Below, piece by piece: positions 52,669-61,077 of a stretch of 64,000 nucleotides of DNA; position 1 is the first letter of the stretch, and each line of letters begins with the position of its first letter. The stretch comes from Halovivax gelatinilyticus. Lineage in GTDB: Archaea; Halobacteriota; Halobacteria; Halobacteriales; Natrialbaceae. The position numbers and the translations under genes were made by a program. The stretch covers positions 3,113,992-3,177,991 of the forward strand of contig NZ_CP101322.1 of NCBI RefSeq assembly GCF_024300625.1, in the 5' to 3' direction. A model generated the notes under the pieces. The model was not told the origin of the DNA. It saw nothing but the letters and a program-made list of their open reading frames with translations, and did not search any database.

Positions 52669-54387
52669 ATGCCCACAGACGACGCCTCCGACCCGAGCGT
52701 ACCGACCGATTACGAGATCGCTCGATCGACCGACATCGAACACATCGCGAACGTCGTAGAACCGTACGGACTCTCCCGCGAGGACCTGGCGCTCTACGGC
52801 GATCACGTTGCGAAACTTCCGTTCGAGACCATCGATCGGATCCGTACCGAACACGACGATGACGGCAAACTGATACTCGTCACCGGGATGACTCCGACGC
52901 CGATGGGCGAGGGAAAAACGGTGACGACGGTTGGGCTCGGACAGGCGTTAAACCGGATCGGAACGGACGCCCTGGTCGCCATCCGCGAGCCGTCACTCGG
53001 ACCGGTCTTCGGGGTGAAAGGCGGTGCCGCAGGTGGCGGCTACTCGCAGGTGTTGCCGATGGAGGATATCAACCTCCACTTTACCGGAGATCTCCACGCG
53101 CTCACCGCCGCGCACAACCTCGTCGCGACGATGCTCGATAACCACATCAAACAGGGAAACGCCCTGGATATCGACGTCAATCAAATCGAGTGGCCCCGGG
53201 CGATCGACATGAACGACCGCGTCCTGCGCGAGACCGTCGTCGGACTCGGCGGATCGGTCACGGGCGTCCCGCGCGAAGACGGGTTCGTCCTGACCGCGGC
53301 GTCGGAACTGATGGCCGTTCTCTGTCTCGCAGACGGTATCGACGACCTCAAAGCTCGCGTGAGTCGGATGATCGTCGCGTACGATGGCGACGGAAGGCCC
53401 GTTACCGCCGACGACATCGACGCGACGGGCGCCGTCTGCGTCCTGCTGAAGGACGCGCTGATGCCGAACCTGGTTCAGACGATCGAGGGCACCCCGGCGC
53501 TCGTCCACGGCGGGCCGTTCGCGAACATCGCCCACGGGACGAACTCGTTGTTGGCGGACGAAGTCGCGAGACACATCGGCGACTACGTCGTCACGGAGGC
53601 GGGATTCGGGTCCGATCTCGGCGCGGAGAAGTTCATGAACATCGTCTGTCGGTTCGCGGATATGGAACCCGATGCGATCACGCTCGTCGCCTCCGTCAGG
53701 GCGCTCAAGTACCACGGACAAAACATGTGGCCGGCGGACCTCGACGCGCTCGAAGCCGAGGACGTCGACGCCGTCCGCGACGGTCTCTCGAACCTCGACG
53801 CACACGTCAGAAACCTAACACAGTACGGCGTCCCGGTCGTCGTGGCGATCAACCGCTTCCCGGGCGATACCGACGCGGAGATCGCCGCCGTCCGCGACCA
53901 CTGTGAGACCGAACTCGGTGTCGACGTCGCCGAATCGCGAGTGTTCGAATCGGGCGGTGCGGGTGGCGTCGAACTCGCCGAGAAGCTGGTCACCGCGGCC
54001 GAAACCGACTCGACGTTCCGTCCGCTCTACGACCTCGACGTGCCGATCGCCGAGAAGATCGAGACGGTCGCGACCGAGATGTACGGTGCCGACGGCGTCG
54101 AATTTCACAGCAGCGCCGAGTCCGACCTGGAGCGACTCACCGACCTCGGTTTCGACGACGTGCCGATCTGCATGTCGAAGACGTTTCACTCCTTGAGCGA
54201 CGATCCGAGCCTGAAAGGTGTCCCCGAAGATTGGACGCTCGAAGTGCGAGACATCTATCCGTCCGCCGGGGCCGGATTTCTGGTCGTCCTCACGGCCGAC
54301 GTTCTCACGCTTCCGGGTCTCCCCGGCGAACCAGCCGCCGCCGGAATGGACGTCGACACTGACGGCAACGTGAGCGGCCTGTTCTAG
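52669..54387 (+). CDS. fhs: Formate-tetrahydrofolate ligase
   Basis: Fhs uses ATP to join formate to tetrahydrofolate, giving 10-formyl-THF for purines and C1 exchange. The 572-residue protein carries the P-loop-like TPTPMGEGKTVTTVGLGQAL near residue 75, the substrate block REPSLGPVFGVKGGAAGGGYSQV, HFTGDLHALTAAHNL and, near the C-terminus, YPSAGAGFLVVLTADVLTLPGLP. Length fits the family (about 550-560), with a small acidic N-terminal extension. It lies just upstream of a formate dehydrogenase region, suggesting that formate is both oxidised and assimilated. Confidence 0.95.
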   Translation: MPTDDASDPSVPTDYEIARSTDIEHIANVVEPYGLSREDLALYGDHVAKLPFETIDRIRTEHDDDGKLILVTGMTPTPMGEGKTVTTVGLGQALNRIGTDALVAIREPSLGPVFGVKGGAAGGGYSQVLPMEDINLHFTGDLHALTAAHNLVATMLDNHIKQGNALDIDVNQIEWPRAIDMNDRVLRETVVGLGGSVTGVPREDGFVLTAASELMAVLCLADGIDDLKARVSRMIVAYDGDGRPVTADDIDATGAVCVLLKDALMPNLVQTIEGTPALVHGGPFANIAHGTNSLLADEVARHIGDYVVTEAGFGSDLGAEKFMNIVCRFADMEPDAITLVASVRALKYHGQNMWPADLDALEAEDVDAVRDGLSNLDAHVRNLTQYGVPVVVAINRFPGDTDAEIAAVRDHCETELGVDVAESRVFESGGAGGVELAEKLVTAAETDSTFRPLYDLDVPIAEKIETVATEMYGADGVEFHSSAESDLERLTDLGFDDVPICMSKTFHSLSDDPSLKGVPEDWTLEVRDIYPSAGAGFLVVLTADVLTLPGLPGEPAAAGMDVDTDGNVSGLF

Positions 54388-54428: not shown

Positions 54429-55001
54429 TTACCCGTTGAAAGAGTCGCGATGCCAGGCTACCCAGATAGCGGTGTACACCGTCTGGAGATCGAAGTCTCC
54501 CCTCGCTCTCAGGGCGATACATCGATCGAGGTACTGCCGGTACGTCGCGACGCTCGGCGCGTCGGGATACCGTTCGTCGAGTTCACCGTGCTCGTAGAGG
54601 ACGGTCCACTCCGCACAACTCATCACGAGGTGAGCGGACGGATCGAGAAACTGGGCGAACGCGCTCGCGATCGAGACGTCCACTCCGGACAGGTCGGTTA
54701 GCGCCTCGATTGTCGGTTCCACTTCGGATTCATCGACCGCGGTCGATACGGCCGCGTGGACGGCTTCGTACTCGTTGTTCCCGAACGACTCTTCGCCCGC
54801 GCGGCGCCCTTCGTCGGGGTGCGCGCCGAGAAAGCGCCTGTAGTACCACTGGACGATCCACTCGACGTCGCGCCATCCATAGTCGCCGCTCGCGAGGGTC
54901 CGGGGAAGTACGTCCAGGTGTTCTCGCTCGATGTCGGCGAGCGGCTGACGCTGCTCGTATTCGCTCGCCAGCGTCTCTATTCGCTCTCCGGTTAGCTCCA
55001 T
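54429..55001 (-). CDS. Haloarchaeal protein of unknown function
   Basis: A 190-residue acidic soluble protein, mainly helical. It contains Trp/Tyr-rich segments (GWRDVEWIVQWYYRRFLGA near residue 43; IWVAWHRDS at the end) and a central helix pair (VSIASAFAQFLDPSAHLVMSCAEWTVLYEHG). The pattern resembles proteins that bind base or nucleotide substrates, but nothing specific is recognised. It lies inverted between fhs and fdhF, convergent with fhs. The composition is typical of the host, so recent transfer is not indicated. Confidence 0.6.
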   Translation of the reverse strand: MELTGERIETLASEYEQRQPLADIEREHLDVLPRTLASGDYGWRDVEWIVQWYYRRFLGAHPDEGRRAGEESFGNNEYEAVHAAVSTAVDESEVEPTIEALTDLSGVDVSIASAFAQFLDPSAHLVMSCAEWTVLYEHGELDERYPDAPSVATYRQYLDRCIALRARGDFDLQTVYTAIWVAWHRDSFNG

Positions 55002-55215: not shown

Positions 55216-57360
55216 ATGGCAACTCAGGACACAGACCCGGTGAAGACGATCTGCCCGTACTGCGGCGTCGGCTGCGGGATCAAGGTACAGTCAGGCGAGG
55301 AGCCCGGCGACATGCGATTCGTCCCGTGGGGCGATGCGCCGGTGAACGAGGGTCGCATCTGTATCAAAGGCGGAGCGGCGACGGAGGTCGTAGATCACGA
55401 GGACCGATTAACCGACCCGCTCGTCAGGGAAGACGGCGAGTTTCGCGAAGCGTCCTGGGAAGAGGCCTACGAACGCATCGTCGCCGAGATGGGTCGTATC
55501 CGGGACGAGTACGGACCCGACGCGATGGGCTTTTTCGGTTCCTCGAAGGTGATGAACGAGGAGAACTACCTCCTCCAGAAGCTCGCGCGTCGGTACGGAA
55601 CCAACAACGTAGACAACTGCACGCGGATGTGTCACGCCTCGACGGTCTGGGCCCTCCGGACGAGTCTCGGCGCCGGGGCGATGACCAACAGCATGGCCGA
55701 CCTGCGCGAAGCGGCCGACGTCCTCTGGATTCAGGGGGCCAACCCGGGCGAACAGCACCCGATCGCGAACAGTCAGTACTTCCGACAGGCTGTGCTCGAC
55801 GGGGCGACGGTGATCCAGGTCGACCCGCACGCGAACAAGACGACGCGCTCGTTCAAGATCGACGAGACCGACCGTCACCAGCACCTCCAGCTGGAACCGG
55901 GCACCGATATCCCGCTGTTGAACGTCGTCATCAAGACGATCCTCGACCACCACGAGTCTCATCCCGAAGACGGCTGGATCGACGAGGAGTTCGTCGAGGA
56001 AAGAACCGAAGGGTTCGACCACCTCGTCGAGACCCTCGCCGACTTCGACGCCGAAGCCGCGGCCGAAACCTGCGGCGTCCCGCTCGAGGAGATCGAGCGA
56101 GCCGCGGCGGCGTACGCGTCGGCCGACAACGCGGCCATCTTCACCGGGATGGGCATGAGCCAGCACGCCTGCGGGGTCGACAACGTCCAGAACGAGATCA
56201 ATCTCGCGCTCATCACCGGGAACCTCGGCCGACCTGGCACGGGCGTCAATCCACTGCGCGGGCAGAACAACGTCCAGGGTACCTGTGACGTCGGAGCGAT
56301 GCCGAACGTCCTGCCGGGCTATCAGCTCGTCGACGACGACGAGGCACGTGCGTCGGTCGAGGACGTCTGGGGATTCGACGTCCCTGCAGAGCCGGGATTG
56401 ACGAACGTCGAGATCTCGGACGCGATCGGTTCGTCGATCCACGGCCTCTACGTCATGGGGGAGAATCCGGTGATGAGCGAACCGGACGCAAACCGCGCGA
56501 TCGAGCGAATCGAGAACGATCTCGAGTTCATGGTCGTCCAGGACATCTTCATGACCGAGACGGCGGAGTACGCCGACGTGGTACTCCCGGCGACGAGCTG
56601 GGCCGAACGGGGCGGGACGGTCACCAACACCGACCGGCGCGTCCAGTTGATGCGACCGGTAGCGAACGTCCACGAGAACACCAGACACGATCTCGACATC
56701 GTCTGTGAGGTGGGCCGTCGACTGTTCGACGACGGCGACGAACACTTCGACTTCGACGAGCCGGAAGCGGTGTTCGAAGAGCTACGTCGGGTCTGTCCGA
56801 GTTACCACGGTATGACGTACGAGGCGCTCGGAGAGGAGGGTATCCAGTGGCCCTGTTACGAGGAGGGTGACGAGGGCGATCAGTACCTCTACGAGGAGAC
56901 GTTCGACACGGAGAACGGACTCGGTCGGATCGTCGGCGTCACCCATCAACCGCCGAAGGAGACGCCCGACGAGGAGTATCCGCTCATCCTCACGACCGCC
57001 AGACTCGAAGAGCACTACAACACGGGGACGATGAGTCGTCGATCCCCGACGCTCTCGCGCCAGCACCCTGAGAACTTCGTCGACATTCATCCGAACGACG
57101 CCGCGAAATACGGTGTCGAAGACGGCGACGAGGTTACGATCCGATCGCGACGCGGGGAGATCACCGTCCGCGCCCAGGTTACCGAGGATATCAAAGAGGG
57201 TGTCATCTGGACGACCCCGCACTTTGCTGCCGCCTCGGCGAACCGGTTGACGAACAACGTTCTCGACGAGCGAGCGAAAATACCGGAGTACAAGGCCGCC
57301 GCCGCGGAGATCGAAGTCGGCGTCGAACCCGCTACTGGCACCTCTCCGGCTGACGACTGA
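55216..57360 (+). CDS. fdhF: Molybdopterin-dependent formate dehydrogenase, catalytic subunit (Cys type)
   Basis: A 714-residue enzyme that oxidises formate to CO2 with a bis-MGD cofactor. The N-terminal [4Fe-4S] ligands are Cys13, 16, 20 and 49 (CPYCGVGCGI and GRICIKG). The metal ligand is Cys139 followed by His140 (RMCHAST), so this is a cysteine rather than a selenocysteine enzyme. Later cofactor blocks are WIQGANPGEQHPIANS, GLYVMGENPVMSEPD and LPATSWAERGGTVTNTDRRVQ. There is no Tat signal, so it is cytoplasmic. No FdhB or electron-acceptor subunit follows; a soluble ferredoxin or an NAD-linked partner elsewhere is likely. Confidence 0.95.
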   Translation: MATQDTDPVKTICPYCGVGCGIKVQSGEEPGDMRFVPWGDAPVNEGRICIKGGAATEVVDHEDRLTDPLVREDGEFREASWEEAYERIVAEMGRIRDEYGPDAMGFFGSSKVMNEENYLLQKLARRYGTNNVDNCTRMCHASTVWALRTSLGAGAMTNSMADLREAADVLWIQGANPGEQHPIANSQYFRQAVLDGATVIQVDPHANKTTRSFKIDETDRHQHLQLEPGTDIPLLNVVIKTILDHHESHPEDGWIDEEFVEERTEGFDHLVETLADFDAEAAAETCGVPLEEIERAAAAYASADNAAIFTGMGMSQHACGVDNVQNEINLALITGNLGRPGTGVNPLRGQNNVQGTCDVGAMPNVLPGYQLVDDDEARASVEDVWGFDVPAEPGLTNVEISDAIGSSIHGLYVMGENPVMSEPDANRAIERIENDLEFMVVQDIFMTETAEYADVVLPATSWAERGGTVTNTDRRVQLMRPVANVHENTRHDLDIVCEVGRRLFDDGDEHFDFDEPEAVFEELRRVCPSYHGMTYEALGEEGIQWPCYEEGDEGDQYLYEETFDTENGLGRIVGVTHQPPKETPDEEYPLILTTARLEEHYNTGTMSRRSPTLSRQHPENFVDIHPNDAAKYGVEDGDEVTIRSRRGEITVRAQVTEDIKEGVIWTTPHFAAASANRLTNNVLDERAKIPEYKAAAAEIEVGVEPATGTSPADD

Positions 57361-57452: not shown

Positions 57453-59192
57453 ATGGCACCGCGTGCCCCCGATCGGATCGTGCGTGTCGACCTCACCGAC
57501 GAGCGGGTCGAGTCGGAGCCGGTTCCCGAGCGCTGGCGGCGATTGTACGTCGGTGGGAAGGGTCTCGGGGCGCGCTATCTCTTCGACGAACTCGAGCCGG
57601 GCGTCGATCCGCTCGGTGCGAAGAACGTTTTGGGGTTCGTGCTCGGACCGCTCAGCGGGTACCTTCCCGGCGACGGTCGCTACGCGGCGATCACGAAGTC
57701 TCCGCTCACCGGAACCTTTCTCGACTCCTACGCAGGTGGTGAGTTTCCCGCCGCGCTGGCCGGATCGCTCGGCGATCACATCGGTATACTCGTAACCGGA
57801 CGTGCCAGTCGACCGGTTCGGCTGGACGTAGCGAATGGATCCGTCTCCATCGAACCGGCCGAATCGTGGGGCGAGGATACGGTCGAGACCGACCGTCGCC
57901 ACCCGGACGCGAGTGTGGCGTGTATCGGCCCGGCCGGCGAGCACGAGGTCTCGTTCGCGACGATCGCCTCCGACGAGGCGACGCACCACGCCGGACGCGG
58001 TGGTGCCGGTGCTGTCATGGGGTCGAAACGGTTGAAGGCCGTCGTCGCTCGAGACGACCCGCCGACACCCGACTCGGTGCTGGCTCGGTTGCGGGCGCGA
58101 GCGACGGATCGGTATCGCGAGAGCGAAACCGGGATCTGGCAATCCACCTCGGAGACCGTAGAGACCGTCGACTTCGCGAACGAGGCGGGCGTCCTCTCGT
58201 CTTACGGGTGGCGCGAGCGCGGGTTCGACGACACCGAGAGCGTGGGAATCGAGGCGGCGCGCGACGTCGCCACCGGACGGGAACGTGACGGACCGATCCC
58301 CGGTGGGTTTCGCGTCGACACTGACGAAGGCGAGACGGTTCCGCGAGGCGCAACGGCCATGACCCTCGGCGCCGGTCTCGGTATCGACGACTTCGAGGAG
58401 ATTTCCCGGCTCGGACACCGGTGCAACCGCCTTGGCGTCGATCTGATCGAGGCCGGAAACGCTATCGCGTGGGCGATTCGAGCGGCCGACGACGGCTTCC
58501 TTGACCGCGACCTCTCGTTCGGATCGCCGTCCGACGCCCGCGACCTGCTCTTCGAAATCGGGAATCGATCGTCACCGCTGGGAGAGGCGCTGGCGGCGGG
58601 TATCGACGTCGCAGCCGAGCGCTACGGTGGCGATCAGTTCATTCCGTCCGTTAAACGACAATCCCTGCCCGCGTACGATCCGCGCGCCACGTCGAGTATG
58701 GCGCTCGCCTACGCCACGAGCGATCGCGGCGGCTGTCACCGGCGGGCCCGACCGATCGAACGAGCGGTGTTCGAAGCTGACTGGGACGCAACACGGACGG
58801 TCGACGCGATCGTTCGGGCCCAGAACGAGCGGTCGCTTCGCTGGAGCCTCGTCGCCGACGACTTCGTCGGCGAATCGATCGACGCCGCCGAGTGGCTCGA
58901 CGCCGTCGGTGTCCCGTATCACGACCTCGACTCGACTGGCGAGCGCATCTGGAATCTCGTCCGATTGTTCAACGTCCGGGAAGGATTCGACCGTCGCGAC
59001 GACGCCTTTCCCTCGGAGCTCGTCGATGGAACGGTCGATCAGGATGCGTTCGAGTCGCTGCTCGATACGTACTACGTCCAGCGGGGCTGGGACCGCTCCG
59101 GTTGCCCTACCGAACAGACGCTCTCTGCCCTCGATCTTGATTCCTTCGTCGACGATTCGTTGGGTGCTAAAGACTCGACCGTCGATGAGTGA
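57453..59192 (+). CDS. Aldehyde ferredoxin oxidoreductase family protein without the [4Fe-4S] cysteines
   Basis: A 579-residue member of the AOR family, which normally holds a tungsto-bispterin and a [4Fe-4S] cluster. Family landmarks: WRRLYVGGKGLGARYLF (28-44), pterin-binding TKSPLTGTFLDSYAGGEF (81-98), HHAGRGGAGAVMGSK (178-192), RCNRLGVDLIEAGN (323-336), YATSDRGGCHRRA (420-432) and FNVREGFDRRDD (506-517). Only Cys157, 324, 428 and 551 exist. The CxxCxxxC motif expected near 270-300 and the fourth ligand near 469 are missing. It may bind pterin without normal electron transfer. It lies 93 nt after fdhF and before yqeC. Confidence 0.85.
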   Translation: MAPRAPDRIVRVDLTDERVESEPVPERWRRLYVGGKGLGARYLFDELEPGVDPLGAKNVLGFVLGPLSGYLPGDGRYAAITKSPLTGTFLDSYAGGEFPAALAGSLGDHIGILVTGRASRPVRLDVANGSVSIEPAESWGEDTVETDRRHPDASVACIGPAGEHEVSFATIASDEATHHAGRGGAGAVMGSKRLKAVVARDDPPTPDSVLARLRARATDRYRESETGIWQSTSETVETVDFANEAGVLSSYGWRERGFDDTESVGIEAARDVATGRERDGPIPGGFRVDTDEGETVPRGATAMTLGAGLGIDDFEEISRLGHRCNRLGVDLIEAGNAIAWAIRAADDGFLDRDLSFGSPSDARDLLFEIGNRSSPLGEALAAGIDVAAERYGGDQFIPSVKRQSLPAYDPRATSSMALAYATSDRGGCHRRARPIERAVFEADWDATRTVDAIVRAQNERSLRWSLVADDFVGESIDAAEWLDAVGVPYHDLDSTGERIWNLVRLFNVREGFDRRDDAFPSELVDGTVDQDAFESLLDTYYVQRGWDRSGCPTEQTLSALDLDSFVDDSLGAKDSTVDE

Positions 59193-59258
59193 TGCCGGTT
59201 GGAGCCGGCTGGGCGATCGATGGGGAATCGACATAACGAGTGCGATCGAATCCCGACT

Positions 59259-60017
59259 ATGGAACTCGAACGCGCTCTCGAAGCCGATGCGGGACTCATC
59301 TGCGTCGTCGGCGCCGGGGGAAAGAAAACGACGCTCTACACGCTCGCGAATCGGCTCGATCGGGCCGTTCTCACCGCGACGGTTCGGATCCCAATCTTCG
59401 ACGGGATCGTCGAATCGGTCGTCGTCGGTGACGATCCGCTCTCGGTGACGGCCTCTCACTCGGACGCGTGGCCGATCGGCCTCGTTCCCGGACGCGAGGG
59501 TGACCGATACCTCGGCTTTGCACCCGATATCGTCTCCGAAATCGCCGCCACGCACGATGGACCGGTACTCGTCAAAGCGGACGGTGCTCGCACTCGCGAG
59601 TTCAAGGCACCGAGTGAACGGGAACCGCAGATTCCATCGACCGCCGACGTCGTCCTTCCGATCGCCAGCGTCGACGCCGTCGGGCGGGCGCTCTCTGCAG
59701 AGACAGTTCACCGGCCCGAACGTATCGCAGAACTCACCGGTCTCGACCGTGGGCAGCCGATCACGTCGGAGACGATCGCGACGGTGCTCACCCATCCGGC
59801 TGGCGGGCTGAAATCGGTGCCGGCTGGTGCGACGGTCATCCCGGTATTGAACAAGGTCGACGACGAGTCGGACGCAGCGATCGGACGTGAGATCGCTCGT
59901 CGGATCGACGACCGTCTCGATTTGGCCGATTCGAAGCCGCGCGGCGTCTCCGTTCCGCGGATCGTTCTCGCCAGCATGATCGAACCGACGGTCGTAGACG
60001 TCCTCGAACGAAGTTAA
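59259..60017 (+). CDS. yqeC: YqeC-type molybdenum hydroxylase accessory protein
   Basis: A 252-residue putative P-loop protein of the YqeC family, named for its link to selenium-dependent molybdenum hydroxylases. The N-terminal motif CVVGAGGKKTTLYTLAN is a Walker A-like site; VLVKADGARTREFKAPSEREPQIP is the main family signature, and VIPVLNKVDDE resembles a GTPase NKxD motif. The ATG at 59259 gives the family start; the frame upstream overlaps the AOR-like gene end. Its place beside AOR-like and mobA genes suggests a role in cofactor maturation or insertion. Biochemistry of the family is not settled. Confidence 0.85.
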   Translation: MELERALEADAGLICVVGAGGKKTTLYTLANRLDRAVLTATVRIPIFDGIVESVVVGDDPLSVTASHSDAWPIGLVPGREGDRYLGFAPDIVSEIAATHDGPVLVKADGARTREFKAPSEREPQIPSTADVVLPIASVDAVGRALSAETVHRPERIAELTGLDRGQPITSETIATVLTHPAGGLKSVPAGATVIPVLNKVDDESDAAIGREIARRIDDRLDLADSKPRGVSVPRIVLASMIEPTVVDVLERS

Positions 60018-60058: not shown

Positions 60059-60712
60059 TCAGCGCTCACCGTCCCGTCGGATACGTTCGACTGCCTCGTC
60101 TAGCTCCTCGCGGGTATTGACGTTCGCGAACGTGGCCGGATCGTCGATTTCGTCCGATTCGATCACCGCGTACTCCAGCGTCTCTACTGCGTCGAGTATC
60201 CGCCCGTCCCCGGTTTCGAGCGCCCGTTCGCAGGCCGCGCGCATCGGTTCCACTCGGTACACCGCCTGAGTCGTTTGAAACCAGCCATCGGATAGTCTGG
60301 CGATCGCGCCGTCGCATCCCCGGGCCCGCTCGAAGGCGTACGCCAAAAATGTGGGATCGACGAACGGCATGTCGCACGCGACTACCGCGGCATATTCGGC
60401 GTCCGTCGCGGAAAGCCCCGTAGCGATTCCACCCATCGGACCCCGATCTGGCGTCTCGTCGATAGCGATCTCGACGGGACTTGGATGGCCGCCCATCACC
60501 GACTCGAGTCCCTCTCGTTGGTCGGTTCGCCCGTTGACGACGAGTTCACCGACGACGGGCGCGAGACGGTCGGCAACCCGTCGTACCATCGCCACCCCGT
60601 CGACGTTCGCGAAGGCCTTATCGCCATCGCCAAAGCGCGTAGAGCGTCCACCGGCGAGGATCACGCCCGCTCGGTTCGACTGGGCCGAGCCGCTCGCCTC
60701 CGATTCGCTCAT
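60059..60712 (-). CDS. mobA: Molybdenum cofactor guanylyltransferase MobA
   Basis: MobA adds GMP to molybdopterin, giving the MGD cofactor needed by FdhF. The 217-residue nucleotidyltransferase has the N-terminal signature VILAGGRSTRFGDGDKAF, the guanine-site segment DETPDRGPMGGIATGL and the metal-binding VACDMPFVDP. The last part, FANVNTREELDEA, is typical of MobA and its relatives. It is convergent with yqeC, with 41 nt between the stops. Confidence 0.92.
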   Translation of the reverse strand: MSESEASGSAQSNRAGVILAGGRSTRFGDGDKAFANVDGVAMVRRVADRLAPVVGELVVNGRTDQREGLESVMGGHPSPVEIAIDETPDRGPMGGIATGLSATDAEYAAVVACDMPFVDPTFLAYAFERARGCDGAIARLSDGWFQTTQAVYRVEPMRAACERALETGDGRILDAVETLEYAVIESDEIDDPATFANVNTREELDEAVERIRRDGER

Positions 60713-60843
60713 ACGTCGCCTACGGTGCTCATCGAAAAAAGCGTTCGTCGATCGAGGCGGTGTTTCCGTTCACATCTGCGGTGACACGGACAATCCGAGA
60801 GTGGGAATCGCAACTCTCGAAATCCGCGTTCGATCCGATACTC

Positions 60844-60898
60844 GCCGCTCGCGAGTTTGCTCGCGGCATGAATATGGGCCAACTCGGACTTGAACCGA
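60844..60898 (-). repeat. Partial copy of the tRNA-Ile 3' end plus flank
   Basis: A 55-nt copy of the sequence at 60973-61027, with three mismatches. It includes 24 nt equivalent to the T arm and acceptor 3' strand of the neighbouring tRNA-Ile and 31 nt of its downstream flank, with the stem-loop GCCGCGAG-CAAA-CTCGCG-AG-CGGC. A 3'-end tRNA duplicate is what recombination at a tRNA attachment site leaves behind, although the interval between copies is only about 75 nt. Confidence 0.75.
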
Positions 60899-60972
60899 AG
60901 GAAGACGTTCCGGGTCGCTTCGCTCCCGGGCTGCGACTTCCAGGGCTCAAATCTGAGTCGGATTCCGGACTT

Positions 60973-61003
60973 GCCGCTCGCGAGTTTGCTCGCGGCAAGA
61001 ATA
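60973..61003 (-). repeat. Stem-loop and flank immediately downstream of tRNA-Ile
   Basis: This is the second copy of the flank repeat. On the minus strand the tRNA ends at 61004 and is followed by ATATTCTT and a hairpin-forming GC-rich segment (GCCGCGAG, loop CAAA, then CTCGCGAGCGGC with a 2-nt bulge). It could mark tRNA 3' processing or termination. Together with the first copy it brackets about 75 nt of unique DNA. Confidence 0.6.
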
Positions 61004-61077
61004 TGGGCCAACTCGGATTTGAACCGAGAGCCTCCACCTTATCAGAGTGGCGCTCAACCTGATTGAGCTATTGGCCC
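61004..61077 (-). tRNA. tRNA-Ile (anticodon GAT)
   Basis: A 74-nt cloverleaf. The acceptor GGGCCAA/TTGGCCC is perfect with discriminator A. The D stem is GCTC/GAGC. The anticodon stem CCACT/GGTGG (one T-G pair) holds loop CTGATAA, giving anticodon GAT. The T arm is CTCGG-TTCAAAT-CCGAG. CCA is not encoded. Its last 24 nt are duplicated at 60875-60898. Confidence 0.97.

Follow-up and report, generated by a model that had tools for sequence, protein, structure and literature searches.

A cluster-free clade of the aldehyde oxidoreductase family associated with YqeC and formate dehydrogenase in haloarchaea

The window examined here, the whole 64,000-nucleotide stretch of Halovivax gelatinilyticus DNA that was analysed, encodes a 579-aa member of the aldehyde oxidoreductase (AOR) family which we call AORcf, for cluster-free AOR-family protein (57453..59192, + strand), extending the name to its orthologues. 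Judged from its sequence, AORcf is an old, well-conserved AOR relative common to haloarchaea that lacks both the [4Fe-4S] cluster and a key catalytic residue. Sequence, genomic context and distribution together lead us to favor, with a probability of roughly 0.4, a role as a non-redox protein that handles Mo- or W-bispterin within a maturation module comprising YqeC, MobA and formate dehydrogenase (FDH).

The affiliation of AORcf is not in question. AFOR_N (PF02730, 5e-62) and AFOR_C (PF01314, 5e-76), the pair of Pfam domains that marks the AOR/WOR superfamily fold, span nearly all of the protein, and a fold search returned AORs only below an E value of 0.001. The top match among solved structures is 9mqx (264 bits by sequence; 31% identity in the fold search), followed by sequence by the haloarchaeal WOR83 (9q1t). 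An earlier note on this DNA had counted only four Cys residues in the translation (157, 324, 428 and 551) and had placed none of them at a cluster ligand position. Both statements hold for the 579-aa ORF, and the description is correct because the ligands of Pyrococcus AOR (PfAOR, 1aor), Cys288, Cys291, Cys295 and Cys494, fall on D279, I282, F286 and D469. The loss is shared by haloarchaeal orthologues (47-67% identical to the window protein among those compared): all four ligands are replaced in 63/63 distinct sequences, by D/N/G/T at 288, V/S/D/I at 291, F/Y at 295 and D at 494, with no loss in the sister clade or in canonical AORs, and the Class I combination of CxxCxxxC with a distal Cys occurs in 0/63. 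The place of CxxCxxxC is taken by a loop (residues 276-288; 58278..58316, +) in which R276 and E277 are invariant, GGF is conserved and the length between them varies, while the fourth-ligand place holds Asp469 (58857..58859, +) in 63/63. Cys157, Cys324 and Cys428 are also invariant, but they are not new cluster ligands, because Cys stands in the same columns in AORs that bear a cluster, in all of them or in some; a cluster held by other Cys residues is rejected by this alignment.

The catalytic apparatus has changed as well (residues are numbered as in Pyrococcus AOR, with roles taken from PMC12096430). Where the E-Y-E block carries the catalytic Tyr312-Glu313 pair, AORcf has R-G-A (its residues 298-300; 58344..58352, +); the Glu313 position is Ala in 56, Gly in 5 and Ser in 2 of the 63 sequences, and that of Tyr312 is Gly in all. 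Tyr452 is mostly replaced by Arg; Asp489 is Trp, the sister clade also being without Asp489. None of these three substitutions had been remarked in the earlier note, nor had the presence in the same genome of three further AORs (L001, L002, L004), all with a cluster. In the second shell of Thr243, Glu313, Tyr427 and His448, only Glu313 is lost: Thr243 and His448 (His429 of AORcf; 58737..58739, +) are kept in 63/63, and position 427 is Tyr in 58 and Phe in 5. The bispterin cradle is largely intact, with Asp343 in 63/63, Arg76 in 62/63 and the GG and GRGGAG-VMG motifs retained, Asp489 being the exception, and its motifs rank among the most conserved residues of the protein. The proposal that normal electron flow had been abandoned and the pterin site kept fits this pattern. 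Normal aldehyde oxidation with electron export by AORcf looks impossible on the residues present, and cofactor binding, as predicted from them, looks likely.

An orthologue was found in 205 of the 392 genomes sampled from the order, a count obtained from 212 matches at E<=1e-60 by removing seven genomes that hold a sister or more distant relative; 24 weaker matches were inspected one by one, and a few more were accepted by score. In a maximum-likelihood tree (a quick search with SH-aLRT support only), AORcf forms one clade (SH-aLRT 100) on a long stem of 0.89, nested among cluster-bearing relatives. The clade next to it, also haloarchaeal, retains CxxCxxxC, EYE and the fourth Cys. L116, encoded in a genome (G574) that belongs to this phylum but not to the Halobacteriales, branches outside both with its cluster retained. 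A single loss explains the cluster-free trait. In one phylum-wide search of 295 genomes for cluster-free AORs beyond the order, the best outsider was the cluster-bearing L116. Values of dN/dS between 0.09 and 0.22 in ten pairs place AORcf under purifying selection and rule out pseudogene decay.

The near-obligatory partner of AORcf is YqeC. In the window this P-loop protein (GAGGKK-T) is encoded immediately downstream (59259..60017, +; TIGR03172, 165 bits against a cut-off of 73); its likely start is the ATG at 59259, chosen by a near-invariant Met21, with a TTG at 59199 also in frame. Besides the P-loop it has a nearly invariant Cys (C35, 31/32), and a sequence search found no solved relative. 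A yqeC gene accompanies AORcf in 203 of 205 genomes, the two exceptions being 77% (G133) and 85% (G380) complete, and 53 genomes have YqeC without AORcf. Five of six examined genomes with the sister AOR and no AORcf also lack yqeC. The two genes co-vary within three genera (g1, g3, g5), and the other four g1 genomes have no AORcf, no yqeC and no Fdh-alpha match. Fisher p-values (1e-57 for AORcf with YqeC) overstate the evidence, because genomes within an order share ancestry and the counts are not independent; the same caution weighs against the handling role wherever it leans on genome counts. Haloarchaeal YqeC is nearly always found with formate dehydrogenase and mostly without SelD, and the label that NCBIfam gives it, "selenium cofactor biosynthesis", may be misleading in this group.

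The second association is with FDH. The upstream neighbor is an FdhF-type alpha subunit (55216..57360, +; TIGR01591, 745 bits against a cut-off of 666) that matches solved FDHs and bears the Cys-His active-site motif RMCHAS. Genomes with a match to it at E<=1e-200 number 190, and all but three of these (187) also have yqeC, so that FDH, like AORcf, is nested within the distribution of YqeC. Such a match is present in 158 of the 205 AORcf genomes. In 21 genomes tested among the remaining 47, an Fdh-alpha scoring above the curated cut-off is encoded by at least 16, and weaker FDH-like matches occur in the others; none of eight genomes lacking both AORcf and yqeC has an Fdh-alpha above that cut-off. 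This is the co-occurrence expected of the proposed YqeC-linked FDH maturation module. The partner enzyme itself is variable. Besides FdhF, AORcf adjoins a NuoG-fused (NAD-type) FDH with a NuoF-like subunit (L038, L046) and a Tat-exported FDH-like protein accompanied by genes for additional subunits and for a TorD-type chaperone (L047, L048, L134), and the Cys-His motif is present in the FdhF proteins and in all five FDH-like neighbors checked. One nearly complete genome (G051, locus L131) has an 80% identical FdhF and no yqeC match, an informative exception. In Haloarcula and relatives (L035-L049), a recurring set near AORcf consists of a MopB enzyme with a Tat signal, a TorD-type chaperone, a fusion of FlpD and ferredoxin (720 aa in L042) and a DUF7405 protein resembling Dyp peroxidases.

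A convergent gene for a MobA-like molybdopterin guanylyltransferase (60059..60712, - strand; Pfam NTP_transf_3, MobA family models scoring below their cut-offs) completes the set in the window and recurs beside YqeC and FdhF in other genomes; the FdhF-MobA-YqeC unit is retained even where AORcf is absent (L126, L127, L128, L130). On the far side of FdhF lie a 190-aa protein with no Pfam or NCBIfam match (54429..55001, -), copies of which (41-48% identity) recur beside FdhF at six loci from several lineages (L051, L059, L062, L129, L132, L133) and which possibly belongs to the FDH module, and a formate-using neighbor, formate-tetrahydrofolate ligase (Fhs; 52669..54387, +; PF01268, 824 bits). 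At the other end, the 3' part and flank of a tRNA-Ile gene (61004-61077, -) are partly duplicated 129 bp away (60820-60898 versus 60949-61077; 86% over 79 nt), adjoining a gene set that is seemingly absent from the other four genomes sampled in this genus. An integration site could lie here, although the window shows no second boundary.

FdhD is the usual sulfuration factor of FDHs. We found none in the genome of the window or in a further 80 haloarchaeal genomes, 54 of which have FdhF, with a search that was positive in 8 of 14 control genomes, and Pfam detected AFOR domains only, and no FdhD-NarQ domain (PF02634), in AORcf. According to a 2023 review, FDH genes in halobacteria are often unaccompanied by fdhD, and which proteins carry out the maturation there is an open question (PMC10609526). 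Because FdhD is missing and YqeC is known from the gene set of selenium-dependent Mo hydroxylases (Haft and Self 2008, PMC2276186), YqeC is a candidate FDH maturation protein; in both types of client, FDH and Mo hydroxylase, the metal has Se or S as a terminal ligand, which would suggest a shared YqeC step. A selenium role for AORcf itself is unsupported: SelD occurs in 33/392 genomes, its matches adjoin a separate YqeC copy, and the genome of the window yielded no YqeB and no SelD match above the cut-off.

We propose that AORcf, no longer an electron-passing aldehyde oxidoreductase, would hold Mo- or W-bis-molybdopterin in its ancestral cradle, serving as a holder, or as an assembly or transfer platform, beside YqeC and MobA and feeding FDHs in haloarchaea devoid of FdhD. 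In sequence, AORcf would bind Mo/W-bis-MPT, the P-loop protein YqeC would drive a metal-ligand (e.g. sulfido) or transfer step, MobA would add GMP, and the cofactor would pass to FDH; we infer the binding of pterin and metal, each transfer and their order. The proposal draws on the combined loss of ligands and catalytic pair from a protein that keeps most of its cradle, on the single origin of that state within cluster-bearing relatives, on the nesting of both AORcf and FDH within YqeC, on the gene neighborhood and on the absence of FdhD. It is also favored by the exchange of FDH partners by a protein whose electron and proton routes are lost. The wider idea that haloarchaea mature FDH without FdhD by a YqeC-centred pathway, with a retired tungsten enzyme as bispterin platform or chaperone, is put forward more tentatively. 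Several findings run against a handling role. AORcf is not always needed, because 24 genomes have FdhF and YqeC without it. The strict conservation of Thr243 and His448, and the near-invariance of Tyr427, are what an active site, and not a passive holder, would lead one to expect. MPT is the pterin bound by the AOR cradle whereas FDH uses MGD, which would oblige AORcf to act ahead of MobA. The function of YqeC is itself unproven, its deletion in C. difficile having given no clear phenotype (PMC11448449). The suggestion that AORcf might be a cofactor carrier for the adjacent FdhF survives in its general sense, FDH cofactor maturation being the best reading, and is too narrow in its particular one: that AORcf serves FdhF alone, as an obligatory carrier, is disfavored by those 24 genomes, by the 76 of 205 AORcf genomes that have no FdhF orthologue and by the NAD-type and Tat-exported FDHs that also adjoin AORcf.

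The next possibility, close behind though still well short of even odds, is that AORcf works as an enzyme, with Mo/W-bispterin but no cluster, and depends as a client on YqeC in the way that FDH does. Its chemistry would be other than aldehyde oxidation (oxygen or sulfur transfer, or hydration), or it would receive electrons straight from a partner. Cluster-free DMSO and biotin-sulfoxide reductases, members of another family, take electrons directly from theirs. The retained second-shell residues would then find a ready use, and the one-way dependence on YqeC is the pattern of a client, as are the AORcf genomes without an FdhF orthologue and the YqeC genomes without AORcf. Yet the proton-relay residues Glu313, Tyr312 and Tyr452 are lost, no conserved substrate gene lies beside AORcf, and a stand-alone enzyme need not recur beside three unlike FDHs and MobA.

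A role as a subunit docked to FDH, its pterin wired through the Fe-S cluster of the dehydrogenase, is improbable. FdhF and AORcf likely form one operon, being separated by 96 bp in the window and by 14 bp and 11 bp in two other genomes (G023, G054), as such a subunit might be. However, three FDH architectures would have to offer identical docking to a protein that has gained no new conserved domain, and FdhF with YqeC does without AORcf in the 24 genomes already mentioned. It is less probable again that AORcf has no metal cofactor and keeps the AOR fold as a relic, with a structural or regulatory role. The replacement of Asp489 by Trp and the loss of both halves of the catalytic pair would suit a relic, as would the AlphaFold model, which is poor around the active site. 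That model is only fair (pLDDT 69.7, below 50 around 160-182, 232-272, 276-286 and 295-305), and it therefore supports the fold and not the active-site geometry. Against a relic stand the strong conservation of the cradle and the near-absence of AORcf from genomes without YqeC. It is very improbable that AORcf is an ordinary AOR with a cluster bound through different residues: the ligand set of WOR5 consists of three Cys and one Asp (PMC12096430) and AORcf has its invariant Asp469, but the motif positions carry unlike residues in a loop of variable length and the invariant Cys columns are common to cluster-bearing AORs.

Were the handling role correct, an oxidoreductase would have turned into a cofactor chaperone. 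The gene set points to YqeC, and secondarily to AORcf, as candidate halobacterial FDH maturation proteins, a candidacy directly testable in cultivable haloarchaea. A nearby [4Fe-4S] cluster has been described as common to all tungstoenzymes (2025 review, PMC12096430), a rule that this conserved and widespread clade breaks, the AOR fold here doing something else. Class I WORs are defined by a [4Fe-4S]-bearing WorL, and the searched main-text passages of the classification into 92 WOR clades mention no cluster-free clade (PMC13328260); PMC12096430 describes partial losses of cluster ligands only, in WOR4 and WOR5. The clade is new relative to these descriptions, and it may have been mentioned elsewhere.

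Among known systems, the Class I WOR/AOR enzymes (PfAOR, 1aor; AmWOR1, 9mqx; WOR83, 9q1t) share with AORcf the AFOR_N/AFOR_C architecture, the cradle motifs, Thr243, Tyr427 and His448; unlike them, AORcf lacks the cluster Cys residues, Glu313 and Tyr312 and is tied to YqeC and FDH. Its nearest relatives, the sister haloarchaeal AORs (L075, L076, L079, L080, L082; 42-46% identical), have in common with it Tyr93, a His in the place of Ala183 and the AT(S/A)DRGxCH block, and differ in retaining CxxCxxxC, EYE and the fourth Cys. WOR4Pf, with one Cys lost and a 3Fe cluster, and WOR5/ASOR, with three Cys and an Asp (PMC12096430), also depart from the four-Cys set, but AORcf has lost all four. YdhV and the class II benzoyl-CoA reductase BamB, described as cluster-bearing and with a Cys metal ligand (PMC12096430), have the AOR fold without the usual second-shell residues, whereas AORcf retains three of the four and has no cluster; BamB is its weakest match among solved structures (110 bits), and AORcf has three invariant Cys residues (157, 324 and 428) in a protein whose active-site model is unreliable. 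The YqeC-SelD system of selenium-dependent Mo hydroxylases (PMC2276186) also employs YqeC, but in haloarchaea SelD adjoins its own, separate copy. FdhD occupies a place similar to that proposed for AORcf, in the handling of the FDH cofactor, and the two have no sequence relation.
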